Source of the DNA: Fodinicurvata sp. EGI_FJ10296
Lineage (GTDB): Bacteria; Pseudomonadota; Alphaproteobacteria; DSM-16000; Inquilinaceae
Reading direction: 5' to 3'
DNA length: 64,000 nt
NCBI RefSeq assembly: GCF_040712075.1
Contig: NZ_JBFCVL010000001.1
Location: 317,501-381,500 of the forward strand
Shown: in pieces, positions 10,002-57,821 of the stretch
Layout of the letters: every line of letters starts with the position of its first letter
Position numbering within the stretch: the stretch's first letter is position 1
Translations under genes and position numbers: made by a program
Notes under the pieces: model-generated
Databases searched by the model: none
The model's input: only the letters and a program-made list of their open reading frames with translations
Told to the model about the DNA's origin: nothing

Positions 10002-10332
10002 TGCGTAAGCCGTCCTTGATATTCCTGGTTGGGAGGCAATCCTGATCGTGATCCGATTTCCATTGCCCGTCGGGGAGCGCCGGAACCGATTCTCTGGCCG
10101 ACACTATAGGGTTTTCATGCCGCAACGCCAGAAGAAAGGCCCCGGCACCATACCAGCCGGGGTGACGGGAATTCAGGTAATTTGATGACATTTTCCGTTC
10201 CGGCGTCGCCCAACGATGGCAATCCGCGCATTTCGGGATGCGATGCACCGGGGCGAAGCTTGTCGCGTGCCGCTATTTGCTTTTCAATGACCGGCCGGGC
10301 TCAACGTCCGGGCACAACGATTGGCCAAGGTA
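10002..10332. other. Divergent intergenic region between ialB-like and sigma factor genes
   Basis: About 330 bp that must hold promoters for both directions. I looked for the RpoE-type TGATCC...TAAGA promoter of Rhodobacter in front of the sigma gene and did not find a convincing copy. No gene is supported here. Confidence 0.4.
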
Positions 10333-10929
10333 ATGACGGCGTCTGACGGATTCGACACCCCTGAAGCAACCGACACTGCGGGGCGCGGCGCAAAGCCGCT
10401 CGACCGTCTGATAGAAGCCGTGGGCGCATGTCAGGATCGTCAGGCGTTTCAGGCGCTGTTCGCGCATTTCGCCCCCCGCATCAAATCCTATCTCATGCAG
10501 TCCGGCAGCGATGCCGGCCAGGCCGAAGAGGTGGCGCAGGAAGTGATGATCACGGTCTGGCGGCGGGCGGCCCTGTTCGACCGGCGCCTTGCATCGGCGT
10601 CGACATGGATCTTCACCATCGCCCGCAACAAGCGGATCGACAGCATTCGGCGCCAGCGGCGTCCGCAGATTGATTTTGAAGATCCGGCATTCGTTCCTGA
10701 TCCGGTGGCGCCTGCCGACCGTATATTCGAGGAAGGTGAGGACGCCGAACGCGTTCGTGCCGCGATTGAAACCCTCCCGGAGGAGCAGCGGGCTCTCCTC
10801 CGCATGGCATTCTTCGAGGACAAACCGCACAGCGAAATCGCATCGCTGTGTTCTTTGCCTCTTGGAACGGTGAAATCGCGGATCAGATTAGCGATGACAC
10901 GGCTTCGCAAGCAGTTGAAGGACGAGTAG
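10333..10929 (+). CDS. ECF sigma factor of the RpoE/ChrR (singlet oxygen) type
   Basis: A sigma-70 family ECF sigma factor of 198 residues. Region 2 is visible as AEEVAQEVMITVWRR and WIFTIARNKRIDSIRR; region 4 as LPEEQRALLRMAFFEDKPHSEIASLCSLPLGTVKSRIRLAMTRLRK. The HSEIAxxxxLPLGTVKSRIRLA form is typical of the ECF11-like group, partners of ChrR anti-sigma factors. The next gene, 6 nt downstream, encodes a ChrR-like protein, confirming the pair. In Rhodobacter such a system responds to singlet oxygen made by light. ATG at 10333 has AAGG before it at close spacing; TTG at 10321 is an alternative. Confidence 0.92.
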   Translation: MTASDGFDTPEATDTAGRGAKPLDRLIEAVGACQDRQAFQALFAHFAPRIKSYLMQSGSDAGQAEEVAQEVMITVWRRAALFDRRLASASTWIFTIARNKRIDSIRRQRRPQIDFEDPAFVPDPVAPADRIFEEGEDAERVRAAIETLPEEQRALLRMAFFEDKPHSEIASLCSLPLGTVKSRIRLAMTRLRKQLKDE

Positions 10930-10935
10930 AGAACG

Positions 10936-11727
10936 ATGGCGGATCGGGACACCAGACAGGGGACTGCTCCGAAGGGGATCACTCCAGAGGGGATCGGCAG
11001 ATCGCCGTGTGACAAAGCAGCCGGTCCATCCCATCATATTCAGGACGAGATACTAATGGATTATGCCGCCGGAACCTCGTCGGAACCGGAAGCCGTTTTT
11101 GTTGCTGCGCATCTCGCGCTCTGCCCGCAGTGCCGTCGCAGGATCGAGGAACTGGAGGAAATCGGCGGCGCATTTCTTGAATCGGTCGGGCCGGCAGAGT
11201 GCGGCGAAGATGCCTTCGACGCCTTGATGGCCCGGATCGACGCCGGCGATGAAAGTTCGGATGAGCAGAGCGAAGGGGCACCGATCACTGCCCGGGCTGG
11301 CCCGGTTCTGCCGGGGAATCTCGATGACGCAACCGCCCGGATCATTCCCCGGCCACTGCGCGACTATCTGGACCAACCGATTTCAGCGCTGCCCTGGAAG
11401 TCGGTCATGCGCGGCCTGGACGAGGTATCGGTGCCGATCGGAGAAGGCGACTCAAAACGCAAGGCCCGCCTGCTGAGGATCAGGGCCGGCACGCAAATGC
11501 CGAAGCACACCCATGCGGGATCGGAAATGACGATCGTTCTTTCGGGGTCGTTCTCCGACGAACGCGGCGCTTTCGGACGGGGTGACGTCGCCATTCACGA
11601 CGACGACGTCGATCATCAGCCTGTGGCCGGTGACGAGGAAGATTGCCTGTGCTTCGTCGTAACCGATGCGCCGCTGAAGCTGACCGGCCGGTTCACGCGA
11701 TTCCTGAACCCGTTCGTCAAGTTCTGA
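10936..11727 (+). CDS. chrR: ChrR-like zinc cupin anti-sigma factor
   Basis: A 263-residue cytoplasmic anti-sigma factor partner of the preceding ECF sigma factor. Around residue 55-63 lies the zinc-binding anti-sigma motif HLALCPQC (His-x3-Cys-x2-Cys). The C-terminal half is a cupin with MPKHTHAGSEMTIVLSGSF and a later DVDHQP, giving the two His, one Glu and one His that bind zinc in Rhodobacter ChrR. In that system zinc binding holds the sigma factor until singlet oxygen triggers release (known for the family). All expected ligands are present, so regulated inhibition is likely intact. The N-terminus carries about 30 extra polar residues before the conserved HHIQDEILMDYAAG start of the domain. 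Confidence 0.93.
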   Translation: MADRDTRQGTAPKGITPEGIGRSPCDKAAGPSHHIQDEILMDYAAGTSSEPEAVFVAAHLALCPQCRRRIEELEEIGGAFLESVGPAECGEDAFDALMARIDAGDESSDEQSEGAPITARAGPVLPGNLDDATARIIPRPLRDYLDQPISALPWKSVMRGLDEVSVPIGEGDSKRKARLLRIRAGTQMPKHTHAGSEMTIVLSGSFSDERGAFGRGDVAIHDDDVDHQPVAGDEEDCLCFVVTDAPLKLTGRFTRFLNPFVKF

Positions 11728-13581: not shown

Positions 13582-14904
13582 ATGACACCATCGGACAGCA
13601 AACCGCACGGAGTTGGCGGATCGGATGCCGATACGCGAACCGGTACGGGCGACGACCGCATCCGGCAGCAATACGAATCGCTGCCGTATCCCGAGCGACG
13701 GCCCGCCGACGAAGACAAACGGCTGGTGACCGGTTCGCCCAGTCATCTGCATGAAGTCGATCACCACCTCTTCGGCGGCCAGCTCGCCCGGAGGCGCGAA
13801 ACCTTTCGCGTGCTGGTCGCCGGCGGCGGCACGGGCGATGCGTTGATCATGCTGGCGCAACAGTGCGCCGATGCCGGTATCGACGCCCGATTCACCTATG
13901 TCGACCCCTCGTCGGCGGCCGGGGAAGTCGCGCGCAAGCGCGCCGCCCGCCGAGGCCTGGACGACCGGATATCGTTTCTCCAGGGCGGCCTGCCCGACCT
14001 GCCGCTGCCCGACGACGCGCAGTTCGACTACATCGACTGCTGCGGTGTGCTTCATCACCTGAGCGATCCGACAGCCTGCCTTGGCGCGCTGCGCGACCGG
14101 CTCGCCCCCGGCGGCGGCATGGGCATCATGGTCTACGGCACATACGGTCGCACCGGCGTCTACACCCTGCAATCCGCCCTTGACCGCATGGGCATCCGCG
14201 ATCTGACGCCAGCCGACGCGGTCAAGGCGGCACGCCGGGTGCTGAACGCCCTGCCGCCCTCGAACTGGCTGAAGCTCAATCCGTTCGTCGGCGACCACAA
14301 GATCTCCGATGCCGGGTTGTACGACCTGCTGCTGCACAGCCGCGACCGGTCCTATACCGTTCCGGCGTTTCTCGACCTCATCAGCGGCGCAGGTCTGGAG
14401 CCGGTCACGATGATGCTCCCCGCGGCCTATGATCCGGCGGCACTGCTGCCGGATGCCGGGCTGAAACAGCGATGGCAGGATCTGCCGCTGCGCGAGCAGG
14501 CGGCACTGGCCGAAGAGATCGCTGGCGGCCTGAAAGTCCATATCGCCTATCTCGCCCGCGCAGGCGAGACCCAGGGCCGACAGGCTCGACCCACCGGTGA
14601 CATGGTGCCGGTTCTGAAGGACAATGACGGCAAGGAGATCGCCAAGGCAACCCGGCCGGGAACGCCTCTCGGCATCACGATTGCGGGGCTGCGGCTGTCG
14701 GTGTCCATTCCGGCGCTCGGACCCGCCATCCTGTCGCGCATCGACGGCATGCGGACCATCGACGCCCTGTTCGACGACATCGCGGCGTCACGGGGCGGCC
14801 GGCTCGACCGGGACACGTTCGACCGCGATATGGCCGCCGTCGTGGACGGTTTCGCCGGCATCGGGCGGCTGCATCTGCGCGCAGCCGGGACAGACGCCGG
14901 ATAG
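13582..14904 (+). CDS. SAM-dependent methyltransferase with C-terminal extension
   Basis: A 440-residue protein whose central part is a class I methyltransferase: motif I is FRVLVAGGGTGDALIMLAQ (about residues 74-92), followed by TYVDPSSAAGEVAR and FDYIDCCGVLHHLSDP, the latter typical of methyltransferase motif IV-post-IV. The start YESLPYPERRPAD resembles proteins annotated as putative class I methyltransferases acting on small molecules or lipids. The last 130 residues form a separate domain of unknown role with a PqqD/winged-helix-like pattern (RIDGMRTIDALFDDI). The substrate cannot be read from the sequence. The gene ends 9 nt from the stop of pcl in the opposite direction. AGGAG lies 8 nt before the ATG. 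Confidence 0.75.
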   Translation: MTPSDSKPHGVGGSDADTRTGTGDDRIRQQYESLPYPERRPADEDKRLVTGSPSHLHEVDHHLFGGQLARRRETFRVLVAGGGTGDALIMLAQQCADAGIDARFTYVDPSSAAGEVARKRAARRGLDDRISFLQGGLPDLPLPDDAQFDYIDCCGVLHHLSDPTACLGALRDRLAPGGGMGIMVYGTYGRTGVYTLQSALDRMGIRDLTPADAVKAARRVLNALPPSNWLKLNPFVGDHKISDAGLYDLLLHSRDRSYTVPAFLDLISGAGLEPVTMMLPAAYDPAALLPDAGLKQRWQDLPLREQAALAEEIAGGLKVHIAYLARAGETQGRQARPTGDMVPVLKDNDGKEIAKATRPGTPLGITIAGLRLSVSIPALGPAILSRIDGMRTIDALFDDIAASRGGRLDRDTFDRDMAAVVDGFAGIGRLHLRAAGTDAG

Positions 14905-14913
14905 CACGACTTA

Positions 14914-16116
14914 TCAGGGCGCAGCGTCGACCGGCCAGTCGGCGAGTTTGCCGATCTCGTTCGTGGGCAGGTGGTCGCCGAAAGTCAGGCTGACCGGCCG
15001 CTCGGCGGTCGAAAATGCCTCCCGGACCCATTGGCGTATCGCCGTCGGCACATCGGAATCGGCCTCGCCCCCCTCATCGGCCAGAACGACAAAGGCCTTG
15101 AGGCGCAAGCCGCTGCCGGTATCGGTCGGGCGGACCGCGCAGTCGGCAACAGCGGGATGATCTCTAAGCCGGTCACGAATTTGCGCGGGATAGACGTTGG
15201 TGCCGCCGACCTGAACGGCACCGTCACGGCGGCCGATCGGCAGCAATCGGTCGGCGCCCTGCCATTCGACCCGATCGGGAAGAACGGCCACCCGGCCCGA
15301 CTGGTGACGCAGGCGATCGGCATCCAACCGGGTCCAGTGACCCAGCAGTCGGTAAGGGTCTTCCGGCGCGTCGCGCCACCCGATTCCTCCGGTTTCGGAC
15401 GATCCGTACAGTTCCAGCATGCGGCCCAGCCCCCGCCGCCTGAGCGCATGGATCACGACGGGATCAGCAGGCGCGGTGGAAGTGACGCCCGTGGCCTCGG
15501 CAGGCAGACCGGAAACGGCCGATGCCACATGACCCCACTGCACGGGGACGGCCACGATGAGGTCTCTGGATGCCACACCGCCGGGGACGGCTCCGCGCAT
15601 CACGATGTCCTGTGCAGAGGAGTCAGCGATCAATTCCGCTGACAGGCAGTCCGCGATCAACGCCCCCCAAAGGAACCCATAGATATGATGAAGGGGCGCC
15701 AGACACAGGACGCGGCGCGTCGGCCCGACGAGTTCGGCCAGTCGCTCAGCTTCGACGGTCAGATCGGCCATCGACTGAAAAATCGGTTTCGGGGCACCGG
15801 TCGTACCGCCGGACCGAAAGGTGACGCCTGACAGGCCGGCAACCGCCGAGGCCGCAACGACCTCCGCCCATGCATCCATCGTCAGGCGCCGAAGGAGATA
15901 GTCCTCGCCGCCTGCTTCGTGCAGGCGGAAGAACATGTTGACGGCGGTCGCGGCGGAAACGATTTCCAGCGAGTCGGCCTGGATCAGGTCGCCGTTCAGG
16001 GGCTCGTTGGATTGTAAACGTCGTTCCGTTTCCCGAAACGACGCGCCCCGCCCCCCCGATAACTCGGCAGCCACCACATGCCGGACCACCTGACGATACG
16101 CATCGCGGCTGAGCAT
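14914..16116 (-). CDS. pcl: p-Coumaroyl-CoA ligase for photoactive yellow protein chromophore
   Basis: An adenylate-forming acyl-CoA ligase of 400 residues. Its place 4 nt after pyp strongly indicates that it activates p-coumaric acid to the CoA thioester, which then attaches to Cys69 of photoactive yellow protein. Visible motifs are the ATP-binding FRSGGTTGAPKPIFQS (about residues 101-116), ELYGSSETGGIGWRD, GRRDGAVQVGGTNVYPAQIRDRL (A8 hinge region) and TNEIGKLADWP with the C-terminal catalytic lysine. It is much shorter than plant 4-coumarate ligases (about 540), with a reduced N-terminal part, as I recall for other PYP-linked ligases. G+C is high (42 of 60 bases at 15241-15300), unlike pyp. 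Confidence 0.9.
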   Translation of the reverse strand: MLSRDAYRQVVRHVVAAELSGGRGASFRETERRLQSNEPLNGDLIQADSLEIVSAATAVNMFFRLHEAGGEDYLLRRLTMDAWAEVVAASAVAGLSGVTFRSGGTTGAPKPIFQSMADLTVEAERLAELVGPTRRVLCLAPLHHIYGFLWGALIADCLSAELIADSSAQDIVMRGAVPGGVASRDLIVAVPVQWGHVASAVSGLPAEATGVTSTAPADPVVIHALRRRGLGRMLELYGSSETGGIGWRDAPEDPYRLLGHWTRLDADRLRHQSGRVAVLPDRVEWQGADRLLPIGRRDGAVQVGGTNVYPAQIRDRLRDHPAVADCAVRPTDTGSGLRLKAFVVLADEGGEADSDVPTAIRQWVREAFSTAERPVSLTFGDHLPTNEIGKLADWPVDAAP

Positions 16117-16120
16117 GAAA

Positions 16121-16498
16121 TTATAACCGCTTCACGAAAACCCAATAGCTGTCGCCGACGACGGCTTTCTTCATATGGACCTTAACTTTTGTCGGCTTCA
16201 TCTGGTAATCGAACGTGTACTCGAACATCGTCTCCAGTTTCCCCGAATCGACACCGGTCTTGAATCGACCGTAGAACTCTTTGCTATTCGTGCACGGCGC
16301 CACATCCGTGAAGAAGTTCTTCCCAAGAACTTCTTCAGGTTTGCGACCGGTTATCTCACCTTCAGCTTTGTTATAATTCAGAATTTTACCGGTTTTATCC
16401 AGTTGAATAGCGCCGAAAGCCAATTTATCAAGATCGCGGTCGCCCATCTTTGCAAGTGTGTTCTCGATATTGTCGGCACCGAATTTAACGACATCCAT
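16121..16498 (-). CDS. pyp: Photoactive yellow protein
   Basis: A 125-residue blue-light photoreceptor with a PAS fold, the same length as the Halorhodospira halophila protein. All key residues fall at the standard positions: Tyr42 and Glu46 (hydrogen bonds to the chromophore), Thr50, Arg52, chromophore-binding Cys69 in DVAPCT, and Met100. The C-terminus [14 protein letters not shown] and the segment [11 protein letters not shown] are nearly identical to that protein. The ATG at 16498 gives exactly 125 residues and has GGGAAAAGAAGAG before it; a TTG at 16561 would add 21 residues without a ribosome site. The gene is far less GC-rich than neighbours (30/60 and 25/60 in two lines counted), suggesting horizontal acquisition. 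Confidence 0.98.
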
Positions 16499-16586
16499 CT
16501 CTTCTTTTCCCGTTCTGATTTTGCCATTCCAGAACAAAATTGTATGCTCTATTTCTTTCAAGAACGTTAATTTTTCATCGTTTCAC

Positions 16587-16598
16587 TACTTCGAAGTA
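16587..16598. promoter_or_regulatory. 12-bp palindrome upstream of pyp
   Basis: The sequence TACTTCGAAGTA is a perfect palindrome 89 bp before the pyp start codon, in an AT-richer promoter region. It could be an operator for a dimeric regulator; no such regulator is known to me for this site. Confidence 0.3.
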
Positions 16599-16753
16599 CC
16601 GCAATGGACCGTTGCATTTCGGCAGGGATGCTCTCGGCCAATCGAGATAGCGCCCATTCCTGAAAGGACAAGGGGCGGCGCGCAGCCGAACACGGCTCTC
16701 GCGCCGGATTCCCCGCAATAGCCGACGTCCTCCGGCACGGCCATCGCTGGCGC

Positions 16754-16954: not shown

Positions 16955-17116
16955 TTCCACTCCGTCCCGATTTCAGCCTCTTTCGATGATAAGGAAATAG
17001 GGCCGGCCTGGGCGGGCGCAACCATATCGTACGATATCAACGCTGCCTTGAAGCCATCCGGCCATTGCCCACATCTCGGGTTGTCAAACCCGCCAACCAT
17101 TGGAGCGAAAATAAAA

Positions 17117-17986
17117 ATGGGATACGTCCGCACGGCGATCCTGATGGCTGCGATGACGGCCCTGTTCATGGGCGTCGGGTTCATGCTGGGCGGCGAGGCC
17201 GGTATGATTCTCGCCCTTCTGGTCGCAGCCGGCATGAATGTCTACAGCTACTGGAACTCCGACCGCATGATCCTGCGCATGCACAACGCGCGGGAGGTCG
17301 ATGACAGGACCGCCCCCGGCCTGGTCCCCATGATCCGCCAGATGACCGAGCGCGCGGGCATGCCCATGCCGCGCGTCTATATCATCGAAACCGAGCAGCC
17401 GAACGCCTTTGCCACGGGGCGGAATCCGGAAAACGCCGCCGTAGCGGCGACAAGAGGGCTGCTGCGCGCGCTGTCGACCGAAGAGGTGGCCGGTGTCATG
17501 GCCCACGAGCTCGCGCATATCAGGAACCGCGACACTCTCATCATGACCATTACCGCCACTTTCGCAGGCGCGATATCGATGCTGGCGAATTTCGCAATCT
17601 TCTTCGGTGGCAACCGCAACAATCCCCTCGGCATCGTCGGCGTCATCGCAATGATGATCCTGGCGCCGCTGGCCGCCGGATTGGTCCAGATGGCCATCAG
17701 TCGTTCCCGCGAATACGAAGCCGATCGTATCGGCGCAGAGATCTGCGGACGTCCGCAATGGCTGGCCGGTGCGCTGGAAAAGATCGACGTCCTGGCCAAG
17801 CGCATCGACAACAATGTCGCGGAGCGGAACCCCGCTACCGCCCATATGTTTATCATCAATCCGCTGCACGCCCATCGCTACGACAGCCTGTTCTCGACGC
17901 ACCCCGCCACGGCCAACCGGGTGGCGGCGTTGCGGGCCATGGCCGGGGCCGGTTCACCAGCAGCCAGCCGCCGCCCCTGGGGCTAA
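17117..17986 (+). CDS. htpX: Membrane zinc metalloprotease HtpX (M48 family)
   Basis: HtpX is an inner-membrane protease that degrades damaged membrane proteins. The 289-residue product has two N-terminal membrane segments (about residues 4-22 and 28-48), the zinc motif HELAH within [16 protein letters not shown] (about residues 128-143), two further hydrophobic segments, and [12 protein letters not shown] carrying the third zinc ligand (Glu). The [11 protein letters not shown]-like loop and [27 protein letters not shown] segment are typical. ATG at 17117 has GGAG 12-15 nt upstream, and the usual family length supports it. It precedes rsmB on the same strand. Confidence 0.97.
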
Positions 17987-31329: not shown

Positions 31330-32007
31330 CTATCCCGTTACCCTTCCATCCCCCACGACGATCTGCCGTCGGCATCGCGCGGCGATCTTCTCGTCATGGG
31401 TCGAGATCAGGAAGGCGGTGCCCTCTTCCCGATTGATTTCGCCGATCAGGTCCATCACCTGCATGGCCGTGGCCCGGTCCAGATTGCCCGTGGGCTCGTC
31501 CGCCAGCACCAGTTCGGGTCTGTTCATCAGCGCCCGGGCGACGGCGACGCGCTGCTTCTGGCCGCCGGACAGCTTTGCCGAGGGGAAGTCGACACGCGAC
31601 TCCATTCCCATTCGCACGAGCAACTGGCGCCCGCGCGCCCGCGCCGCACCTGTCTCGCGCCCCGCACGCACCGCGGTGGGGAAAATGACGTTCTCCAGGG
31701 CGGTGAAATCAGGCAACAGGTTGTGAAACTGAAATACGAAACCGATGTAGCGGTTGCGGAACTCGGTCAAAGCGGCATCATCGGCACTGACCAGATCCTG
31801 CCCCAGCATCCGAAGACTGCCTGATGTAGGCTTCATCAGTGTGCCGAGGATGGTCAGCAGGGTGCTCTTGCCCGACCCCGAAGGACCGAGCAGGGCCGCC
31901 ATCTCACCCGCCTCCAGCGTCAGGGACAGCCCGCGCAGGACATGGGTCGCCGCATCGCCCTCGCCGAAGGTCTTGATCAGGTCGCGAACCTCCAGCAACG
32001 CGGTCAT
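31330..32007 (-). CDS. ABC transporter ATP-binding protein (LolD/MacB/DevA-like)
   Basis: A 225-residue ATPase with Walker A GPSGSGKST, signature LSGGQKQRVAVARAL, Walker B LVLADEPTGNLD and switch His in ISTHDE, all intact. The GSLRMLGQDLVSADD and FVFQFHNLLPDFTALENV segments mark the LolD/MacB subclass. It is the last gene of a three-gene minus-strand operon (adaptor, permease, ATPase) with overlapping reading frames, the arrangement of DevBCA-like or split MacAB-type exporters that drive a periplasm-spanning efflux or lipid export path. The substrate is unknown. Confidence 0.93.
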   Translation of the reverse strand: MTALLEVRDLIKTFGEGDAATHVLRGLSLTLEAGEMAALLGPSGSGKSTLLTILGTLMKPTSGSLRMLGQDLVSADDAALTEFRNRYIGFVFQFHNLLPDFTALENVIFPTAVRAGRETGAARARGRQLLVRMGMESRVDFPSAKLSGGQKQRVAVARALMNRPELVLADEPTGNLDRATAMQVMDLIGEINREEGTAFLISTHDEKIAARCRRQIVVGDGRVTG

Positions 32008-33209
32008 TGCCCGATCGCCGTGACCGGGTCGACTCGCGCCGCAGCCCGGGCCGGCAGGATCGAGGCGAGGATGGCGCCCAATACCGTGAGCGTGACGGCA
32101 AGCCCGTAGGAGCCTTGCGTGATGTCCATTGGCAAAGTGCCGGAGACGAATTCATCGCGCGTGGGAAAAGGCAGCAGGGCCAGATAACCGAGGACGGCCC
32201 CGGTGATCCCGCCCATCAGCCCCACAAGAGCGCCCTGTGTGACGAACACGAACACGACAAAGCCACGCCCGGCCCCCATCGCCCGCATGATCCCGATCTC
32301 GGGGCGCCTGCGATAGGTCGAAAGCAGCAGCGCCGAGGCGACGCCGATTACAATGGTGATCAGCGCGAAGCTCTTGAGAAAGTACCCGGTCTGGGCCTGT
32401 GCGTTCAGCGCCTCCATCAACTGCTCGGCCCCATCCGTCCAGGGTACGGCATCGAGCCCGGTCAGCGCCCGGATGCGCACGGCCGTGGCATCGGCGGCAT
32501 TCAGGTCGTCCAGTTTAATCTCGATCCGCGTGACCCCCTGTGGAATCGCAAAGAGCGTGCGCGCGGTGGGAAGACTGACAAAGACGCTGGACCGGTCCAG
32601 CATGCCTGTTCCGGTCTGGAAAATGCCCCCGACAGTCAGCGCCGCCGTCACGCCGTTGGAGGATTGCAGCCGCAGCACCTGCCCGACCGAAAGGTCAAGC
32701 TCGTCCGCCAGGCTGCGACCCAGGACGATCACGCCGGAGCCCAGTCGCGCCGACCCTGCAACGATATAGCCTTCCAGATCCAGGATGGCCGATTCACGGC
32801 CCGGCTCCAGCCCCGTCACGCTGACCTGCGCCACCTGCGCGCCGCGAGTCAGAAAGCCCGCACCGGTGATCTGGGGCGACACGGCCCTGACGCCGGGAAC
32901 AGCGTCGATCATCGGCGCCCAGGTCTCTGCATCGCGCAGGGTGGCGGTGCGAAGGCGGCCCGGCTCGACCGCCGTCAACAGATGCCCGTCGACATCGATC
33001 AGGACGGCCGGGTCGGCGCTTTCCGCTTCGATCGTCACATGGCTGATGTCGCCTACGGTGCGCGACAGGATGAACTCGGCCAGCCCACCGATCAGCGCCG
33101 ACATGAAAATGAAGATGAACACGCCAACCGCCACGCCCGAGACCAGAAGTGCGGTCTGCGCCTTGCTGGCGGTCAGGTAGCGCGTCGCGATCTTGAGACC
33201 GTAGAGCAT
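32004..33209 (-). CDS. ABC transporter permease (FtsX/MacB/LolC-like)
   Basis: A 401-residue inner-membrane permease with one N-terminal membrane segment (about residues 20-42), a large periplasmic domain (residues 45-275), and three C-terminal membrane segments, the FtsX/MacB_PCD layout. Segments such as IATRYLTASKAQTALLVSGVAVGVF and YRRRPEIGIMRAMGAGRGFVVFVFVTQG match the DevC/LolC-like subgroup. It overlaps the adaptor gene by 1 nt and the ATPase gene by 4 nt. The permease carries mechanical force from ATP hydrolysis to the periplasmic adaptor and an outer-membrane channel not present in this window. Confidence 0.92.
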   Translation of the reverse strand: MLYGLKIATRYLTASKAQTALLVSGVAVGVFIFIFMSALIGGLAEFILSRTVGDISHVTIEAESADPAVLIDVDGHLLTAVEPGRLRTATLRDAETWAPMIDAVPGVRAVSPQITGAGFLTRGAQVAQVSVTGLEPGRESAILDLEGYIVAGSARLGSGVIVLGRSLADELDLSVGQVLRLQSSNGVTAALTVGGIFQTGTGMLDRSSVFVSLPTARTLFAIPQGVTRIEIKLDDLNAADATAVRIRALTGLDAVPWTDGAEQLMEALNAQAQTGYFLKSFALITIVIGVASALLLSTYRRRPEIGIMRAMGAGRGFVVFVFVTQGALVGLMGGITGAVLGYLALLPFPTRDEFVSGTLPMDITQGSYGLAVTLTVLGAILASILPARAAARVDPVTAIGQ

Positions 33210-34387
33210 CAGGGCGCGTCCCGGCTTATACGCAGCCCGTCGCTGAGGCCTGCCGCGTCGACAATCACCGGGTCGCCGGGCGCCAACCCGTCGGTAACGA
33301 TCAGCCGGGCGGCGGGCCAGTCGGTCACCGTGACGGGCTGGAGCCTGGCCACCTCGTCTCGCGCCAGAAAAACCGCCGCGCCGTCTCCTTCTGTCACGAT
33401 CGCCGTGCGCGGCACGGTCAGGGCGGCATCGCGCTCATCGACCACGATATTTGCGGTCACGGTCAGACCGATGGGCGCGCTGACCGGCGCATCGAAACCG
33501 ATCTTCACGGCAAGGCCGCCGGTGGCCGCATCGACCCGGCCAGACACGGCATTGACATGCCCCGTCCGTGTCTCAGTCTGTCCCGAAAAACGCAAAACCG
33601 CCGGCTGGCCGACGGCGATCTGGCTGGCATACCCTTCATCAATATCGGTTTCGACGATGAGGTCGTCCAGATCGGCGACGGTCATCAGCGCGGTCGCCGT
33701 GTCAGCGACCTGGCCCCTCTCGGCATCCACCGCCACGATCGTGCCTGAAATGGGCGCGCGCAAGGTATGGCGGGCCAGTTGTACCTGCGCCTGTTCCAGC
33801 AGTGCCCGCATGCGCGCGACCTCCTGCACCGCAGATTGCAACGCGCGGCGGTTCGCCTCCAGTGCGGCAACGCTGATGTTGGCCCCCAGCGCCAGAGACC
33901 GCGCGTAAGTCGCATCGGCCTGTTCCTGCGCGACCAGCGCAGCGTCGAGCGCGGCCCGACTCTGCCGTACGATCGCATCCTGTGCCGCGGCATCGATCCG
34001 GGCGAGCACCTGCCCGGCTTCCACCCGTTGCCCCTCGCTTGCCGACACCTCCGTCAGGGTGCCGGTCACCTGCGGGCGCAGGTCGACCGAATGCCGCGCC
34101 GCGATCCGGCCGTTGACCGCCAGCACACGGGTGACGGGGGCCATCGCGACCTGCTCGACGGCAACGGATATCGGCGTCGGGCTCCAGGGTTGCAGGTAAC
34201 CGATGGCCGCCGCCAGCGCGGCAGCAACGCCTGCCGCCAACCATAGCCATCGACGCGGCTTCCGGCCGCGTGCTGGCATCTCCGGTGACGGGCGAAGCAC
34301 ATGCACAAGTGGCGAAGTCGGCTCAGACGATGCCCGCTCCGTTGGCAACCCTTCGTTTTGCTGCCTCGGAGGTTCAGGCAAAATCAT
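33209..34387 (-). CDS. HlyD/MacA-type periplasmic adaptor of tripartite exporter
   Basis: A 392-residue membrane-fusion protein: an N-terminal cytoplasmic tail, a membrane anchor (about residues 47-64), a lipoyl half-motif RHSVDLRPQVTGTLTEV, a coiled-coil hairpin (about residues 150-200 with ALDAALVAQEQADATYARSL and ALQSAVQEVARMRALLEQAQ) and beta-barrel segments such as GTIVAVDAERGQVADTATALMTVADLDDLIVETDI. It heads the operon adaptor-permease-ATPase. Its role is to link the ABC permease to a TolC-like channel. The ATG at 34387 has a weak ribosome site; ATG 35 codons later is possible. Confidence 0.9.
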   Translation of the reverse strand: MILPEPPRQQNEGLPTERASSEPTSPLVHVLRPSPEMPARGRKPRRWLWLAAGVAAALAAAIGYLQPWSPTPISVAVEQVAMAPVTRVLAVNGRIAARHSVDLRPQVTGTLTEVSASEGQRVEAGQVLARIDAAAQDAIVRQSRAALDAALVAQEQADATYARSLALGANISVAALEANRRALQSAVQEVARMRALLEQAQVQLARHTLRAPISGTIVAVDAERGQVADTATALMTVADLDDLIVETDIDEGYASQIAVGQPAVLRFSGQTETRTGHVNAVSGRVDAATGGLAVKIGFDAPVSAPIGLTVTANIVVDERDAALTVPRTAIVTEGDGAAVFLARDEVARLQPVTVTDWPAARLIVTDGLAPGDPVIVDAAGLSDGLRISRDAP

Positions 34388-34476
34388 CGCACCATCGTTT
34401 TCAAGGAATGAACGAGCCTTGAAAAATACATTGGAGTGAACGGGGCCGACTTCAATCGATTGCCTTCGTCGACTTG

Positions 34477-34498
34477 ATCACAGTATTTAAATTGTGAT
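34477..34498. promoter_or_regulatory. Inverted repeat ATCACA-N10-TGTGAT upstream of the exporter operon
   Basis: A 22-bp dyad with 6-bp arms around an AT-rich 10-bp centre, 90 bp before the adaptor start. The spacing fits a dimeric helix-turn-helix regulator; which protein binds is not known. Confidence 0.4.
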
Positions 34499-34632
34499 GA
34501 TGGCACCGGATCAATTCGTCGTTCGATGCCATCGATTGCCGTCTTCCGGTTTGGGACCAACCATTCAGCCGGAGGCAGCGTAGACCGCGTCGCGCATCTC
34601 GGCAGGAAACGCGCCAATGACGCCAGCGAGCG

Positions 34633-35010
34633 ATGTGTTTGTCAGGACGACTACAGACGACGCCCGCTCCGGAACCCTACCCCGTCGCCCGAATGGCCCA
34701 GTTGTCCGACCTGCCCGAGCGCACCTTCAAGCGCCGTTTCAAGGCCGCCCCCGGCTATGCCCCGATCGACTATGTCCAATCCCTGCGCGTCGAAGAAGCC
34801 AAGCAATTGCTGGAAACGACTGGCGATGCCACGGATGCGGTGGCCCAATCCGTCGGCTACGAGGAACCCGCCTGTTTTCGCCGCCTGTTCAAGCGTCTGA
34901 CCGGTGTCACGCCGGCCGCCTACCGCCGGCGGTACCGCTTCATCGGCATGGCCGGACAGAACGGGCACACAGATCGATCCGGCCGGGCAGAGCGCCCTAT
35001 CTCTGGGTGA
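34633..35010 (+). pseudogene. AraC/GlxA-type regulator, truncated to the DNA-binding domain
   Basis: About 100 residues match the C-terminal double helix-turn-helix domain of GlxA-subfamily AraC regulators: PVARMAQLSDLPERTFKRRFKAA, then GYAPIDYVQSLRVEEAKQLLETT, AVAQSVGYEEPACFRRLFKRLTG and VTPAAYRRRYR. The roughly 200-residue N-terminal DJ-1/PfpI-like domain expected in this family is missing; the region upstream (34440-34640) has no recognisable remains. The first codons have no clear start or ribosome site. The stop overlaps the convergent HlyD-like gene by 14 bp. Most likely this is a decayed remnant; a free DNA-binding domain product is possible. Confidence 0.75.
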
Positions 35011-36415
35011 ACAGACGATCCTGGATGAAGCGCAACGGCTTGAACAGATATTCCAGAAGGGTCTTTTCCCCTGTGATCACATCGACCTGCGCGGTCATGC
35101 CGGGCAACAGGCGGATGTCCGGGTCATCGGGCAGCGCATCCTCATCGACGGTCACGAAGGCCTTGAAATAGGACCTGTCGGCCTCGTCGACAAAGGTCGT
35201 GGGGAGAATATCGTCGATGCGGCCGTCGATGGCGCCGAGCTGTGCGAAATCGAGCGCCGGAATCCGGATCATCACCGGGTCGCCGGTCTCGATCACCGCG
35301 ATATCGCGAGGGTCGATACGGGCAGTGATTCGCAGCGGGCTGTCCAGCGACGCGATGCGGGCGATCTCCGCGCCCGGCGCGATCACACCGCCAACGGTGT
35401 CGGCGAAGGATTCCTTGACGATGCCGGCGGTCGGCGCGGTGATCTCCGCCCGCGCCAGCCGATCGTCCAGTCCGCCGATGGTCTCAAGCAGTTCCGCCCG
35501 CTCGCGCAGCACCTCGTCCCGGCGGCCGAGATAATCCGCGCGCAGATTGGCATCCAGTTCGTCCAGTCGGCGCTCTGTCTCGGCGATCGACTGCTGAAGT
35601 CGGGTCAACTCCCCCTCTATGCGGCCGACATCGGTGCGCGCATCGCTGTGGCGCAAATCGGCCTCGATCACCTGCAGCCGGCTCGCCGCGCCGCTGGCGG
35701 CGAGTTGCTGGCGCATCGACTGTTCCTCGCCCACCAGGGTCAGAATCGTTCGGGCCTCTCCCAGCACACGCTCGGATGAGGCGATCTCTGCCTGAAAGGT
35801 ATCGATCTGGCTTTCAAGCACGCCGCGCCGGCTTTCCTCGGCCGCCCACTGGCCGTCGTACAGCGCCTGTTGGGTGGCGATCACGGTGTCGGGGGCATCC
35901 GCGACAGAGTCGAAGTCGGGCCGGCGACCCTCCAGCAGCGCCGACAGTCGCTCCGCATCGAGCGCCAGCGACTGCGACCGCACGACCAGTTGCGCCCGCT
36001 CGGCCAGGATCGCGCGGGTATCCAGACGCACCAGCAGATCCCCGCGCTCGACCAGCTGGCCGTCCTCGATTGCGATATCGGCGATGATACCGCCCTCAAG
36101 GTGCTGGATGCGCTGAATCGGCGCCATCGAGACGACCTCGCCCTCGGCATGGGCCATTTCCTTCATCCGCGCCATCGACGCCCAGACCACGAACGCGGTC
36201 AGCACGATCAGGACGACGAAGACGACCCAGCGCAGAAGGTTCGGCGAGGACCGTTCCTCCAGCAGGATCGAGTGGTTGAGAAACGTATCCTGACGCCGGA
36301 TTCTGGCCGGCGCGCGCATGTTGTCGCGCCCACGCCCCGGCAGGGCGTGTTTCGAGTTCCGGGCCGGCGGTCGCGCGTCGCGTCCGGTGGGTTTGTGATC
36401 GATGATGACGGTCAT
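34997..36415 (-). CDS. HlyD-family type I secretion adaptor
   Basis: A 472-residue type I secretion membrane-fusion protein. A cytoplasmic N-terminus is followed by a membrane anchor (residues 61-80), the lipoyl half AEGEVVSMAPIQRIQHLEGGIIADIAIEDGQLVERGDLLVRLD, a long coiled coil (residues 150-300, for example TRLQQSIAETERRLDELDANLRADY) and the typical C-terminal RIDPRDIAVIETGDPVMIRIPALDF and LLPGMTAQVDVITGEKTLLEYLFKPL. The ending LLEYLFKPLrxxqdRlFTQR is typical of LapC/PrtE-like adaptors of surface adhesin exporters. It is downstream of two ABC genes and completes the inner-membrane part of a type I secretion system. Confidence 0.95.
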   Translation of the reverse strand: MTVIIDHKPTGRDARPPARNSKHALPGRGRDNMRAPARIRRQDTFLNHSILLEERSSPNLLRWVVFVVLIVLTAFVVWASMARMKEMAHAEGEVVSMAPIQRIQHLEGGIIADIAIEDGQLVERGDLLVRLDTRAILAERAQLVVRSQSLALDAERLSALLEGRRPDFDSVADAPDTVIATQQALYDGQWAAEESRRGVLESQIDTFQAEIASSERVLGEARTILTLVGEEQSMRQQLAASGAASRLQVIEADLRHSDARTDVGRIEGELTRLQQSIAETERRLDELDANLRADYLGRRDEVLRERAELLETIGGLDDRLARAEITAPTAGIVKESFADTVGGVIAPGAEIARIASLDSPLRITARIDPRDIAVIETGDPVMIRIPALDFAQLGAIDGRIDDILPTTFVDEADRSYFKAFVTVDEDALPDDPDIRLLPGMTAQVDVITGEKTLLEYLFKPLRFIQDRLFTQR

Positions 36416-36541
36416 GCCGGAACCGCGTGATGGCGTGGAAATTCGAAGGACGTCGCCATTCGTAGCGCCATGTGCGCATAGAAATGCTTAACGCCGGCAG
36501 CATTTTCACGCAAAACTGGCTGGACCCGGAGGCTTTATCCA

Positions 36542-38746
36542 TCACAGGATATCGGCCGGCTTGCCGTTCTTGGCGACCATACCGTTGTTGATCACCAGCA
36601 GACGGTCGGCCTTGCGCATGGTCGACGGCCGGTGAGTGACCAGAATCACCGTCGTCTCGCCGCGCATCCGGTCGAGTTCCTCGTAGAACAGCGCCGTGCG
36701 TTCATTGTCCAGATTGTCGATGACCTCGTCGATCAGCAGCACCCTGGGCTGGCGGGCATAGGCCGCCGCCAGGGCGATGCCATTCAGCAGCATGGTCGAT
36801 ATCTGCCCCATCTTCTGGTCGCCGACGCGATGGGCATAGCCATCGGGCAACCCCTCGATCAGGTCGTGGACCCCCGCCCGCCGGGTGGCGGCTTCGATCC
36901 GGTCGCGGGTCGCGGTCGGCATCGATAGCCGCAGATTCTGCATCACGGTGCCGAAGAACAATTCGAAATCCTGCGGCACATAGCCGATCGCCTGACGCAC
37001 CGTGATCGCCGCATGCTGACGGATGTCGATGTCGTCGATATGGATGCTGCCGGCCTGGGGCTGATAGAGGCCGAGTATGACTTTCAGCACCGTCGATTTG
37101 CCGGAACCGTTGGGGCCGGTGATCGCGACCACTTCGCCCGGCGCGAATTCCGCGCTGACGCCGAGCAGCGCCGGGTCCATGTCGCTTGCATAGCGGAACG
37201 AGACCCGCGACAGCGCGACCTTGCCGTCCTGGACCACGGCGACATCCTTGCCGGCCGTGGTGCCGTCCATCTCCTGCGGGCTTTTCATCGCCTGATTGAG
37301 CCCGTTGATTGTGGACTGGAGCTGTCCCAGACGGGTCAGCAGCAGAAAACCGGCCTGCAGCGGGCTGATGGCACGCCATGTCAGTGTCATGACGGCAATC
37401 AGCGCGCCCACCGACATCTGGGCATTCATGACCTGCACGGCGCCCAGAGCAATGGTCAGCATGCCGGTCATGACCATGACTGACTGCCCGACGGCCGTTG
37501 CCGCTGCCGATGCCTGGGCCGCCTTATAGGTCGAGAAGGCCGCTCTGCCCGATAGCTCTCGGTATCGTCGACGCCAGGCCGCGGTCGCGCCGCTCATTCG
37601 CACCGCATCGTGTCGCGCGACGGTTTCGAAAAGGAAGTCCTGGCGTTCCAGCCCCTGCCTGGCCGCGGCGGAGGTCAGCGCCGTCATGCGTGGCGCCATC
37701 AGCCAGGCAATGGCGCAATATATCAGCGCAGCGGCCAGCGGCACCGCCGCCAGCCACCCGCCCAGCAACGCCAGCGCGACGAGAAACACCAGCGCGAACG
37801 GCAGCTCCACGATCGTCGTCGCCGCCGATCCGCTGAAGATGTCGCGAATGGTGTCGGTCTGGCGCAATCGCTGGACCTGCGAGCCCAGACGCATTCGTTC
37901 ACTCAGCGCCAGCGGCAGCCGGAGCAGATGCGAAAATATGCCACCGGCAACGAGAATGTTCAGCCGCGAGCCGATATGGGCGAACAGCCGGCCGCGCAAC
38001 AGCCGCAGGCCGGCCTCGCCGAGCAGGGCCATGACCGCGCCGGCCAACAGCATCTGAAGCGTGGTCAGTGACCCCGACGGGATCACCTGATCGTAAAGCA
38101 CCATGATGAAGACGGCCGGGGTCACCGCCAGCAGGTAGGTCAGGAAAGTCAGTCCGGCGATCCGCGCGAACAATCCCCTGAATCGGGCGACGATGAACCA
38201 GATCCACCGGCCGCTTTCCGCGGCTTCCCTGGCGCCATCATGTCCCTCGGCACGCGTGAACAGATAGATATCGCCCTTGAGCGCGCGAAGATCGCGGCTG
38301 ACGATGCGGCCGATCGCCGGATCGAACAGCATCACCTGACCGCGGCCGGTCGCCCTGAGCAGCACCAGCGCCGGCGCCCCGGGGCGGATAAGCAAACAGG
38401 GCAGCAGTCGGGAATCAATGCGGTCGCAGCGGGCCGCGGGTACGACGACGCTGGCATAACCCAGCAGCGCAAGGACGTCGCGCAGTGCCGCCGGGTCCAG
38501 GCGCTCGGCGAAATGGGGCAAGGCTTCGGCGACGCTGCGGGCATCGCCGCGCCAGCCAAGGGCCTCCAATAGCGGCCAGAGGCATACGGCGATATCGTCG
38601 ACGTCGTCCAGGACCGACAGGCTGGCCTGGACCGTCGCGGCAGTCGCCCCCGGCCCGGATCCGAAGCGATTGGCCTTCGTGTTCTCGCCGTCATCCGATG
38701 GAACCGGCGTGTCGTTGACGGGTGGCGCGGACCGGGCCACGGTCAT
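36542..38746 (-). CDS. Type I secretion ABC transporter with C39-like domain, altered signature motif
   Basis: A 734-residue ABC exporter. The N-terminal 35-150 region resembles the C39-peptidase-like domain of LapB/HlyB transporters but lacks the protease cysteine motif; the membrane domain spans about residues 165-440; the nucleotide-binding domain has Walker A GPNGSGKST (near 543), a Q-loop GYVPQDFELFFGTVMQNL, Walker B VLLIDEVIDNLD with the catalytic Glu, and switch His in VTHRPS. The LSGGQ signature is replaced by ISTMLLNGIALAAAYAR. This loss is expected if it pairs with the next protein as a heterodimer, where only one of two ATP sites works. ATGA overlap couples it to the preceding ABC gene. 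Confidence 0.92.
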   Translation of the reverse strand: MTVARSAPPVNDTPVPSDDGENTKANRFGSGPGATAATVQASLSVLDDVDDIAVCLWPLLEALGWRGDARSVAEALPHFAERLDPAALRDVLALLGYASVVVPAARCDRIDSRLLPCLLIRPGAPALVLLRATGRGQVMLFDPAIGRIVSRDLRALKGDIYLFTRAEGHDGAREAAESGRWIWFIVARFRGLFARIAGLTFLTYLLAVTPAVFIMVLYDQVIPSGSLTTLQMLLAGAVMALLGEAGLRLLRGRLFAHIGSRLNILVAGGIFSHLLRLPLALSERMRLGSQVQRLRQTDTIRDIFSGSAATTIVELPFALVFLVALALLGGWLAAVPLAAALIYCAIAWLMAPRMTALTSAAARQGLERQDFLFETVARHDAVRMSGATAAWRRRYRELSGRAAFSTYKAAQASAAATAVGQSVMVMTGMLTIALGAVQVMNAQMSVGALIAVMTLTWRAISPLQAGFLLLTRLGQLQSTINGLNQAMKSPQEMDGTTAGKDVAVVQDGKVALSRVSFRYASDMDPALLGVSAEFAPGEVVAITGPNGSGKSTVLKVILGLYQPQAGSIHIDDIDIRQHAAITVRQAIGYVPQDFELFFGTVMQNLRLSMPTATRDRIEAATRRAGVHDLIEGLPDGYAHRVGDQKMGQISTMLLNGIALAAAYARQPRVLLIDEVIDNLDNERTALFYEELDRMRGETTVILVTHRPSTMRKADRLLVINNGMVAKNGKPADIL

Positions 38747-40602
38747 GACGGCGTCCTTCGTCGCCGGGCGCGGATGACGGTGGCCGGCTTCTGTGGCTCA
38801 TTTTCAACCAGACGACCGTCCGACAGCGTGAATGCCCGGTCGACGATTCGCAGCAGCGAGGGGCGCTGGCTCACCACGATCAGCGTCTTTGCGCCCTTTT
38901 GCTCTTCCAGCACGCCGCGCACCAGAGCGTCGCCGTTGGTGTCCAGCGCGGTGTTGGCGGCGTCGAACAGGATGACCGGCGGATCGGCGAACAGGGCACG
39001 GGCGATCGCGATGCGCTGAACCAGTCCATGCGGCAAAATATAAGGGGATCCCGGCCCGATCACGGTATTGAAACCGTTCGGCAGCCGGCCGGCCAGCGCC
39101 GTCAGCCCCAGGCGCGCCGCGATCGCGTAGGCCCGCTCCCGGTCGCGCTCGATGCGATCGCGGACGGACGATGTACCGCTGTCCGCGTCACTGCCGCCCG
39201 GATAATCCGGCGTATCCTCAGCCGCCATCCCGTCAGCGGGTGAAATGTCCTGTTCGGCGAACATCGTGATGTTGTCGAGCAAACTGCCCGCGAAAATTGT
39301 CCCGCGGCTGGGGATATAGGCGATCCGGGACAGGACGCTTTCTTCGGTAAAAGCCCATGGATCCTTCGCGCCGTCGAGGCGCACCGTGCCCGTGTCAGGC
39401 CGGACCAGCCCCGCCATGACCATCAGCAGCGTCGTCTTGCCCGAACCGGCCTCACCGGTGATGCCGACCGCCTCGCCCGGGCGTACGTCCAGATTGACGC
39501 CATCCAGGATGGCCGGCAGCGACGGACCGTACCGCAGCCCGATATCATGCAGCACGATCCCGCCCTTGATGCGGGGAAGTACACGCGTGCCCCATGGCCG
39601 GGACAAGGGCAGGGTCATGCCCTCGCGCACATGGTCGTTGTGAAGCGACAGTTTCTTGTAGCTGGTCCAGATACCGAACGCGCGCTGCAAGGGCTGAAGC
39701 GCCCGATTGGCCAACAGCGTGCAAGCCGCCAGTTCACCGATCGACAGCGCGCCATCGATGACGGCCACGGCACCGCCGGCGGCGACGGCGATCATGGTGA
39801 TGCCGCCCAGTGACGCCGACATTGCGCTGGCGGTCGCCGCGTTGGCGGCAATAGCATGATCGTTGCCGGTGGAGGTCCTGAGGAGCCGTTCGTAGCGGCG
39901 CATCATCGGCGCTTCCAGCGCTTCGCCCTTGATCACCGTCATGCGCCCCAGCGTCTCCAGTTCGAAGTTCAGACGATGGGTATGGGCCTTGTCGGCCGCC
40001 CGCAGCAGAGGCTTCAGGAAAATGTCGCGAAAAGCAAAGATCGCCAGAAATATGCCGAAGATCGCCAGCGGTATGGCAGCGACCCAACCCCCGATGATGT
40101 AGATCAGGCCGACGAACAACGCGACAAAAGGGATGTCGGCGGCAACGCCGAGCGCCTGTCCGGCGTGAAACTCCTTGATTTTGCCGACGGAGGCAAACCG
40201 TTCGCAGTGCTGACCGTTGCCGCCGCCCGCGATCGCGGTCCGGTCAGCCGCCAGAAACCGCGACAGCATGTCCGTGCCCAGGATGTGTTCGAACCGGGCA
40301 CCGGCCCAGGCGATACTGGTGGACCGGATATAGGTCAGAAGCGCTTCGAGCACGAGCGCGACGGTCACTCCCAGGAAGAGCACGGTCAGCGTTTCGATCG
40401 CCGAATTCGGGATGATGCGATCATATAGCTGCAGGATCGCCAGCGGCATTGCCAGGGACAGGACGTTCATCCCGACCGACGCGGCCACCAAAGGCATGGA
40501 CCGCCAAGAAAGCAGGCGGGGTCGTGCCGGTCGCCGCCCATGGCCGTCCTGCGCAATGGTCTCAGCGACCATGGCAACCATGGCCGCACCGGAGGTGATC
40601 AC
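38743..40602 (-). CDS. Type I secretion ABC transporter subunit with degenerate ATPase
   Basis: A 619-residue half-transporter without a C39-like domain: membrane domain at residues 40-320 and a nucleotide-binding domain with intact Walker A GEAGSGKTT (near 382) but a changed signature ILPHGLVQRIAIARAL, Walker B VILFDAANTALD in which the catalytic Glu is Ala (near 549), and VVSQRPS with the switch His replaced by Gln. It cannot easily hydrolyse ATP itself, so it probably forms a heterodimer with the product of the next gene. An acidic insert of about 40 residues (DISPADGMAAEDTPDYPGGS) lies inside the ATPase domain. GTG at 40602 is a weak start; ATGs at 40581 and 40572 are alternatives. Confidence 0.9.
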   Translation of the reverse strand: MITSGAAMVAMVAETIAQDGHGRRPARPRLLSWRSMPLVAASVGMNVLSLAMPLAILQLYDRIIPNSAIETLTVLFLGVTVALVLEALLTYIRSTSIAWAGARFEHILGTDMLSRFLAADRTAIAGGGNGQHCERFASVGKIKEFHAGQALGVAADIPFVALFVGLIYIIGGWVAAIPLAIFGIFLAIFAFRDIFLKPLLRAADKAHTHRLNFELETLGRMTVIKGEALEAPMMRRYERLLRTSTGNDHAIAANAATASAMSASLGGITMIAVAAGGAVAVIDGALSIGELAACTLLANRALQPLQRAFGIWTSYKKLSLHNDHVREGMTLPLSRPWGTRVLPRIKGGIVLHDIGLRYGPSLPAILDGVNLDVRPGEAVGITGEAGSGKTTLLMVMAGLVRPDTGTVRLDGAKDPWAFTEESVLSRIAYIPSRGTIFAGSLLDNITMFAEQDISPADGMAAEDTPDYPGGSDADSGTSSVRDRIERDRERAYAIAARLGLTALAGRLPNGFNTVIGPGSPYILPHGLVQRIAIARALFADPPVILFDAANTALDTNGDALVRGVLEEQKGAKTLIVVSQRPSLLRIVDRAFTLSDGRLVENEPQKPATVIRARRRRTPS

Positions 40603-40664
40603 GCCGGAGATCGCGACCCCGGAAAGCGTTGGTGGCCGGCGTCAGCCGCACCGCATGCGGGCGC

Positions 40665-56729: not shown

Positions 56730-57821
56730 TCACATTTCGTGATCGGACTGCTGTACGGGCATCGGGCTTACAACCGAGTCCGGCACCATGATCCGTTCAG
56801 GATCCTGGCCGGCGTCCATGTTCGGAACAACGGATCCGGCCGTCGTGGCGGTTGTCGTGGCCGGCGCCGACTCCGGTGGCTCGGGCACCTGGACCGGGAC
56901 CGGTGGTGGATCGTCGGGGGCCGCGCCTTCGCCCTCCAAAGGCAGTGTGCCCGCGGGATGCGTCAGGGCCGGACTGGACAGTCCTCCGGCCTTCATCACC
57001 TCGTGGACCGAAATGCCGAGATCGCGGATCACCTCCGGCTGCGCGTCGCCGGCCAGCGCAAGCGCCAATGGGCCATCATACCAATAGGCGGTCGAGACGT
57101 CGTTGTGCTGCGCTGCGCGAAAACGCGGCTGGCTTTCCTGCCATCGGGTCGTCATGAACAGCGCCAGCCTCTCGCCGGCCGAATCCGTGTAATTGATTTC
57201 GACGATGTCGCCCTGCCCGGTCTCGGCCACGCGCTGTCCGACCATTGTATAACCAAGGCCGGTCAGATCCGGCGCCTGCACCTCGAATGTCATCCGGTCG
57301 TTCAAAGCTGAAACGGCGGCCGCATTGCCATCGCCTGCCGATGCCACGGTGACCGGGCCGCTCGATCCGTCACCGGCGGCGTCGAACTGCGGTTCGTCCA
57401 GATAGGCCGTCGTAACCTGGGAAAGAAGCCGCTGATCAACGGCCAGGCCTGTCGGTGCCTGGGTCTGACCACCGGCCCACCAGCCCAGAAACCCGGCCCC
57501 GAGGACCGAGGCCGCCATGGCCGCGACCCGGGTTGCGCGCATCGGGTTTCTGTCAGAGCGGCCGCGAAGCGCCGCTTCCAACCGCTCGGGTACCGGTTCG
57601 GTAATGACCGGGTTATAGAGCGTCCTGATCGCTTCGGTGATGGCAATATCGGTCTGGATATCTGCGGCGTCATCCGGGCGCGCCGCAAGCCACGCTTCGA
57701 CTTGCCGATGCCGATGAGGATCGAGGCGTCCGTCGACATAAGCCATGAGATCGAAGTCGCTGACGGCAGGCTGCGCGGCCTGATGGCTGTCGGCCGTATG
57801 TCCGTTGGTTCGATCGTTCAT
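56730..57821 (-). CDS. Transmembrane anti-sigma factor (pair B)
   Basis: A 363-residue membrane regulator whose ATG overlaps the stop of the preceding sigma gene. The cytoplasmic N-terminus includes VSDFDLMAYVDGRLDPHRHRQVEAWLAARPDDAADI, the DxxLxAYVDGxL anti-sigma layout without zinc ligands. A membrane segment lies near residues 98-115 (VAAMAASVLGAGFLGWWAGG). The periplasmic part contains TFEVQAPDLTGLGYTMVGQRVAETGQGDIVEINY, similar in plan to pair A's anti-sigma domain, and a C-terminal Pro/Thr/Ala-rich tail (300-363). It should hold sigma B at the membrane. Confidence 0.85.
   Translation of the reverse strand: MNDRTNGHTADSHQAAQPAVSDFDLMAYVDGRLDPHRHRQVEAWLAARPDDAADIQTDIAITEAIRTLYNPVITEPVPERLEAALRGRSDRNPMRATRVAAMAASVLGAGFLGWWAGGQTQAPTGLAVDQRLLSQVTTAYLDEPQFDAAGDGSSGPVTVASAGDGNAAAVSALNDRMTFEVQAPDLTGLGYTMVGQRVAETGQGDIVEINYTDSAGERLALFMTTRWQESQPRFRAAQHNDVSTAYWYDGPLALALAGDAQPEVIRDLGISVHEVMKAGGLSSPALTHPAGTLPLEGEGAAPDDPPPVPVQVPEPPESAPATTTATTAGSVVPNMDAGQDPERIMVPDSVVSPMPVQQSDHEM

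Follow-up and report, generated by a model that had tools for sequence, protein, structure and literature searches.

A photoactive yellow protein gene and its p-coumarate ligase gene in a Fodinicurvata genome that appears to lack a tyrosine ammonia lyase

The closest described counterpart of the locus reported here is the pyp-pCL-TAL operon of Halorhodospira halophila, which, in the accessible sections of PMC12826048, comprises a gene for a single-domain photoactive yellow protein (PYP) of 125 aa, a downstream ligase gene and a tyrosine ammonia lyase (TAL) gene. According to the same sections of that survey (2025), 5% of predicted pyp operons contain TAL and 32% contain pCL; the accessible sections of PMC9664959 give TAL in at least 10% and pCL in 30%. 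The origin of the chromophore where TAL is not adjacent is left open in PMC12826048, either elsewhere in the genome or by uptake, and some bacteria, it is stated there, may lack TAL and take up p-coumarate. As far as these sections go, a TAL-less locus is thus already known as common, uptake has already been proposed, and neither survey describes a test across whole genomes; the original prediction had treated the missing neighbouring TAL as remarkable, which these frequencies do not support. The window analysed here, a 64-kb stretch (C1:317501-381500) of the genome of Fodinicurvata sp. EGI_FJ10296 (4.83 Mb, 32 contigs, 99.44% complete), resembles the H. halophila operon, as presented in PMC12826048, in its single-domain 125-aa PYP, the same pocket and the ligase downstream, but no TAL gene follows pcl and none was found elsewhere in the genome. 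The hosts differ too, as the reaction-centre protein PF00124 is absent from the Fodinicurvata genome and a phototrophic host is thereby ruled out by gene content.

The pyp gene (16121-16498, minus strand) encodes a protein that scored 208.1 bits against TIGR02373 (photoactive yellow protein; curated cut-off 143.05) and aligned without gaps to H. halophila PYP at 74% identity. All pocket residues are kept, namely Ile31, Y42, E46, T50, R52, F62, V66, A67, P68, C69, T70, F96, Y98 and M100, in agreement with the prediction of a complete PYP with its chromophore residues in place. The intact pocket suggests that the protein is chromophore-competent, and covalent attachment of p-coumarate, a band at ~446 nm and a photocycle are predicted from it. 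The open frame itself opens at a TTG at 16561, but the ATG at 16498 aligns with the starts of other PYPs and was taken as the start. The AT-rich 5′ flank (16499-16616, minus strand; GC 0.417 in 16350-16649) is the probable site of a promoter or leader of the pair. The span 14914-16616 originally assigned to the pair was therefore right for the two genes, whereas its upper limit takes in ~118 bp of AT-rich DNA upstream of pyp. Together with this flank (16121-16616), pyp makes up the part of the window that is poorest in GC (0.46 for pyp versus 0.64). The GC content of pcl is normal, unlike that of pyp, and the GC3 gap between the two is the second largest among the 80 pairs from the best 80 of 248 loci.

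The pcl gene (14914-16116, minus strand; 400 aa) begins 4 nt downstream of the pyp stop, as predicted, and its product is a p-coumarate (4-coumarate)-CoA ligase of the kind that serves PYP activation, judging from its linkage to pyp and from TIGR02372 (4-coumarate-CoA ligase) as its best NCBIfam model. The score of 308.5 bits over residues 2-392 lies below the curated cut-off of 334.7. This shortfall is ordinary, because 8 of the 10 PYP-linked ligases tested, Pcl included, miss the cut-off, although some scores are slightly low since nine of the ten were entered as their aligned part only. For all ten, TIGR02372 was the sole model with a match at E 1e-40, and its cut-off looks too strict for PYP-linked ligases. 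The frame carries the motifs SGGTTGAPK and YGSSETG and a C-terminal GK. Activity of Pcl on p-coumarate is predicted from these features.

The pair is flanked by a methyltransferase gene (13582-14904) that converges on pcl and lies 9 bp from its stop, and by a divergent htpX (17048-17986). Further neighbours are rlmN, an ialB-like gene, an ECF sigma factor gene with a ChrR-like partner, and genes for a SpoU methylase, an asparaginase, rsmB and a heparinase II/III. Pfam scans of 43 of 53 ORFs picked from the window (the remaining 10 are mostly short) gave no two-component, GGDEF/EAL or chemotaxis domain, and the 13 GGDEF matches genome-wide, two of which are pieces of one frame, all lie outside the window. 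The genes near pyp-pcl thus suggest no signalling partner. The ECF sigma factor with its ChrR-like cupin partner (10321-11727) is encoded ~3 kb away from pcl, and further on, at 57818-58411, lies the gene of a PhyR/EcfG-type sigma factor, a type associated with alphaproteobacteria, which points to a host of that class. Both sigma factors are a possible light- or stress-response context, with no evidence of a link to PYP. The region 32004-44846 encodes two ABC exporters, two HlyD-type fusion proteins, a MacB-like permease and a DUF4114-domain protein of 1393 aa, a set that resembles a type I secretion system together with its large substrate. In a distant genome of the same class (G034), a receptor-like protein (L004:1-1908) ends in a PYP domain that keeps Cys69 and has Gln at the Glu46 position; its chemotaxis-receptor look was judged by eye.

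A pair of residues at the selectivity site tells TAL, HAL and PAL apart. The search of the rest of the genome proposed in the original prediction was run with PF00221 at E 0.001 and returned two proteins only (C1:32094-33395 and C6:129610-130986), both outside the 64-kb window, as the prediction of no lyase within it had stated. One is HutH (TIGR01225, 668.7 bits), with the selectivity pair SH and an intact ASG triad, and it adjoins a probable hutU, read by eye as urocanase. The other (C1:32094-33395; L002:1303-2847) is an ergothionase-like protein of the aromatic-lyase family: its selectivity site reads AH, it lacks the ASG (MIO) triad and has GSIGCADIG where TAL has GTVGASGD, its best PDB match is the ergothionase 6s7j, and its gene adjoins one for an S-Me-THD-like protein. 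Neither has the His-Leu pair that, with the ASG triad, marks a TAL. Both are present in the lyase beside pyp-pcl in Indioceanicola, used for comparison, whose best match is 2o6y, which we take to be the R. sphaeroides TAL. Lyases without ASG also occur in two Azospirillum genomes and in Arenibaculum (L196, L197, L203). The assembly thus appears to contain no TAL candidate. Of the two alternatives originally offered, a lyase elsewhere in the genome is unlikely, because both PF00221 proteins lack His-Leu and the genome is 99.44% complete, and the leading reading is now an outside supply. A TAL gene just outside the window is rejected, since the whole-genome search gave no TAL-type lyase, and the chromophore pocket appears intact; on neither point is the original prediction overturned.

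We then asked how unusual such an absence is. The best 80 of 248 PYP loci in the genome collection were kept, so that all fractions apply only to PYPs near the window PYP, and the retrieval patterns contain Cys69, so that the selection itself accounts in part for the conservation of residues 62-69. The 79 genomes that hold these loci were searched for PF00221, and the lyases were classed by the residues at the selectivity and MIO positions. A His-Leu TAL was present in 25 of the 79 genomes and a TAL-like fragment or split gene in three; 24 have a Phe-His type lyase and 10 a Tyr-His type. HutH is the only ASG lyase in nine (an unclassifiable short fragment, L206 in G185, is counted among these), one has a MIO-less protein only, and seven have no PF00221 match. 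If the Phe-His and Tyr-His types are generously taken as TAL, 17 of the 79 genomes are TAL-less; if only His-Leu and the three fragments are, the number is 51. The 79 genomes came without completeness figures, so that single TAL-less cases may be assembly gaps, and 12 of the 17 are not labelled metagenome bins in their record titles. Seven of the 17 have no PF00221 match whatever, and HAL promiscuity therefore cannot serve those.

In 45 of the 80 loci, a lyase is found no more than 5 kb from pyp. In 11 loci (L061, L062, L068, L069, L071, L075, L077, L079, L081, L082 and L084), all from Idiomarinaceae and Arsukibacterium, a Phe-His lyase, not the His-Leu TAL type, is located downstream of pcl, and in nine spirochaete loci a Tyr-His lyase is on the opposite side of pyp. 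Both look like non-orthologous replacements of TAL. A full-length pcl stands beside pyp in 76 of the 80 loci; of the exceptions, L034 and L099 are cut short by the contig end, only 123 bp follow pyp in L045, and in the TAL-less Marinobacter bin L054 (852-1286) a truncation within the contig leaves a pcl of ~145 aa, for which decay of the system is a better fit than an outside supply in that genome. Among the 17 TAL-less genomes, 14 have a full-length pcl, the others being L045 and L099, cut by the contig end, and L054.

Loss of TAL can be followed in the halomonads, in which 12 loci share pyp, pcl and aceK (the last read by eye). TAL is present between pcl and aceK in six of these, split in one and absent in five, in which 78-99 bp are left between the two genes. 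The split gene (L033:11623-13205), in two reading frames between pcl and an aceK-like gene on the complete chromosome of Halomonas sp. A40-4, may represent an intermediate step in the loss of TAL or may stem from a sequencing error. Two of the five TAL-absent loci (L029, L038) come from genomes that still encode a Phe-His lyase at another site. By parsimony on the Pcl tree, the five absences amount to four changes, and the generous TAL-less state requires 10 changes on that tree, from which L034, L045, L054 and L099 are missing; on the PYP tree, many forks of which are open, it takes 13. In an Ectothiorhodospiraceae bin, an internally deleted TAL remnant of ~600 bp (L021:5236-5865) follows an apparently full-length pcl; this genome was classed as a fragment, not as TAL-less. 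No account of a TAL lost next to PYP turned up in the open-licence literature.

The dN/dS values of pyp and pcl are 0.047 and 0.144 between the sisters L025 and L036 and 0.067 and 0.185 between L090 and L092, and both genes are under purifying selection in these two TAL-less sister pairs; the more distant TAL-less pairs gave 0.161 and 0.251 (L094/L095) and 0.307 and 0.5 (L094/L096). Between the window pyp and that of L020, an Aquisalimonas sp. bin, dS is saturated, so selection could be estimated directly in other pairs only. Given that a PYP-type ligase would be useless without free p-coumarate, its upkeep suggests that TAL-less cells obtain p-coumarate, L054 being the exception.

Among the loci compared (best 80 of 248), it is this Aquisalimonas bin that provides both the PYP (80%) and the Pcl (45-46%) nearest to those of the window. 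In the Pcl phylogeny, the window branches with L020 (support 93) and then with Halovibrio salipaludis and Vreelandella utahensis (95, starred). A constrained tree that unites the window with 11 alphaproteobacterial Pcl rows, a group named after the Pcl tree had been seen, was rejected (AU p 0.0003). The PYP tree agrees on the placement with weak support; the placement was taken from the Pcl tree, as the PYP alignment has too few columns. Of 116 genomes searched, our own included, a PYP above the cut-off was found only in our own. Because the pair groups with halophilic gammaproteobacteria and not with alphaproteobacterial PYPs, it was probably acquired horizontally, as a unit, from a halophilic-gammaproteobacterial PYP lineage. 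The low GC of pyp is weak proof of recent transfer, as PYP genes are GC-poor relative to their surroundings in nearly all loci. Carriage of pyp by phages was rejected, no PYP having been found in the phage collection at E 1e-8. In 16 regions around htpX in relatives (five shorter than 8 kb), neither pyp and pcl nor any other upstream window gene was found at E 1e-12, so that an empty site is not definable. TAL comes immediately after pcl in both V. utahensis and H. salipaludis. The L020 locus is like the window in having pyp-pcl without a lyase, but its genome, unlike that of Fodinicurvata, keeps a His-Leu TAL (L112) on another contig (C100), and separation of TAL may therefore predate the transfer of pyp-pcl.

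Taking these results together, we lean, with fair but far from full confidence, towards pyp-pcl as a two-gene photoreceptor unit of gammaproteobacterial origin that works without a dedicated TAL on external p-coumarate. Free p-coumaric acid would enter the cell from outside, Pcl would activate it with ATP and CoA to p-coumaroyl-CoA, and this would load Cys69 of PYP, which, as in the known system, would then be a blue-light photoreceptor running a normal photocycle. Supply from outside is probably the best remaining reading for the sensor of the window, in view of the intact PYP pocket, the PYP-type ligase, the apparent lack of a TAL-type lyase in the assembly and the recurrence of this configuration. 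The plant or lignin material originally suggested as the supply found no support: hydroxycinnamoyl-CoA hydratase-lyase (NF006588, E 1e-60) and the tannase/feruloyl-esterase family (PF07519, E 1e-20) are both absent from the genome, which gives no sign of life on plant phenolics, and breakdown of lignin or hydroxycinnamates as the source was rejected. Among the 80 genomes, NF006588 occurs in six, three TAL-less and three not, too few for a test, and PF07519 in three, one of them TAL-less. Free p-coumarate of any source would serve. In Niveispirillum, an alpha/beta-hydrolase-like gene (fold assigned by eye) follows pyp-pcl (L018:8727-9437), and its product could release p-coumarate from esters.

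The strongest rival to an outside supply, though in our judgement an unlikely one, is that p-coumarate is made in the cell by a promiscuous or unrecognised enzyme. The candidates are HutH, if weakly active on tyrosine, the ergothionase-like protein and some non-MIO route. A slight activity of HutH on tyrosine is conceivable, as is a TAL of unknown family; small amounts of chromophore would suffice, and HAL or PAL may stand in for TAL according to the accessible sections of PMC9664959. The two lyases at hand are poor candidates, however, as HutH has the histidine signature and the odd lyase lacks the cofactor triad and adjoins an S-Me-THD-like protein, and seven of the 79 other PYP genomes have no PF00221 match. 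A route through hydroxyphenyllactate dehydratase was rejected, PF06050 being absent from the genome and present in only one of 18 (our own and the 17 TAL-less ones). Still less probable is that pyp-pcl was acquired recently and is without function or in decay, with an apo-PYP that is never loaded or that has a light-independent role. The probable horizontal acquisition, the occurrence in one of 116 genomes, the odd base composition of pyp and the truncated pcl of L054 are consistent with it, but both frames are intact with every pocket residue kept, a ligase useless to an apo-protein is retained close by, and both genes are under purifying selection in the two other TAL-less sister pairs. Very unlikely, finally, is a genuine TAL in a small unassembled part of the genome: the assembly is in 32 contigs and an unlinked gene is plausible from the example of L020, but only ~0.56-0.6% is missing by the completeness estimate, and the absence recurs in other genomes, including the clean deletions in halomonads.

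The window thus holds an ordinary PYP and ligase in a genome that appears to lack TAL, as a member of a recurrent TAL-less set with supply from outside as the preferred reading. Among the members, Halomonas sp. ALS9 and SpR1 (L025, L036) likewise keep pyp-pcl and have HutH as the only lyase-family member, but in these strains the absent gene is the TAL of a syntenic pyp-pcl-TAL-aceK locus, and they carry the hydroxycinnamoyl-CoA hydratase-lyase that the window genome lacks. Azospirillum, Arenibaculum, Skermanella stibiiresistens and Falsiroseomonas (L090-L092, L094-L096) also have pyp-pcl and no genomic TAL candidate, the short unclassified lyase fragment of G185 being left aside, whereas their ligases lie elsewhere on the tree, apart from that of the window. 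That TAL loss has made PYP a two-input sensor in scattered bacteria, an AND gate for blue light and external p-coumarate derived from plants or microbes, is a speculation to which we give little weight. The uptake reading is made directly testable by our own genome and the 17 of 79 others, and the halomonad loci offer closely related wild strains that differ in having or lacking TAL at one site, in which the effect of TAL loss on light responses could be measured. The recurrent TAL-less set thereby makes a testable case of what the literature had left as an open remark.
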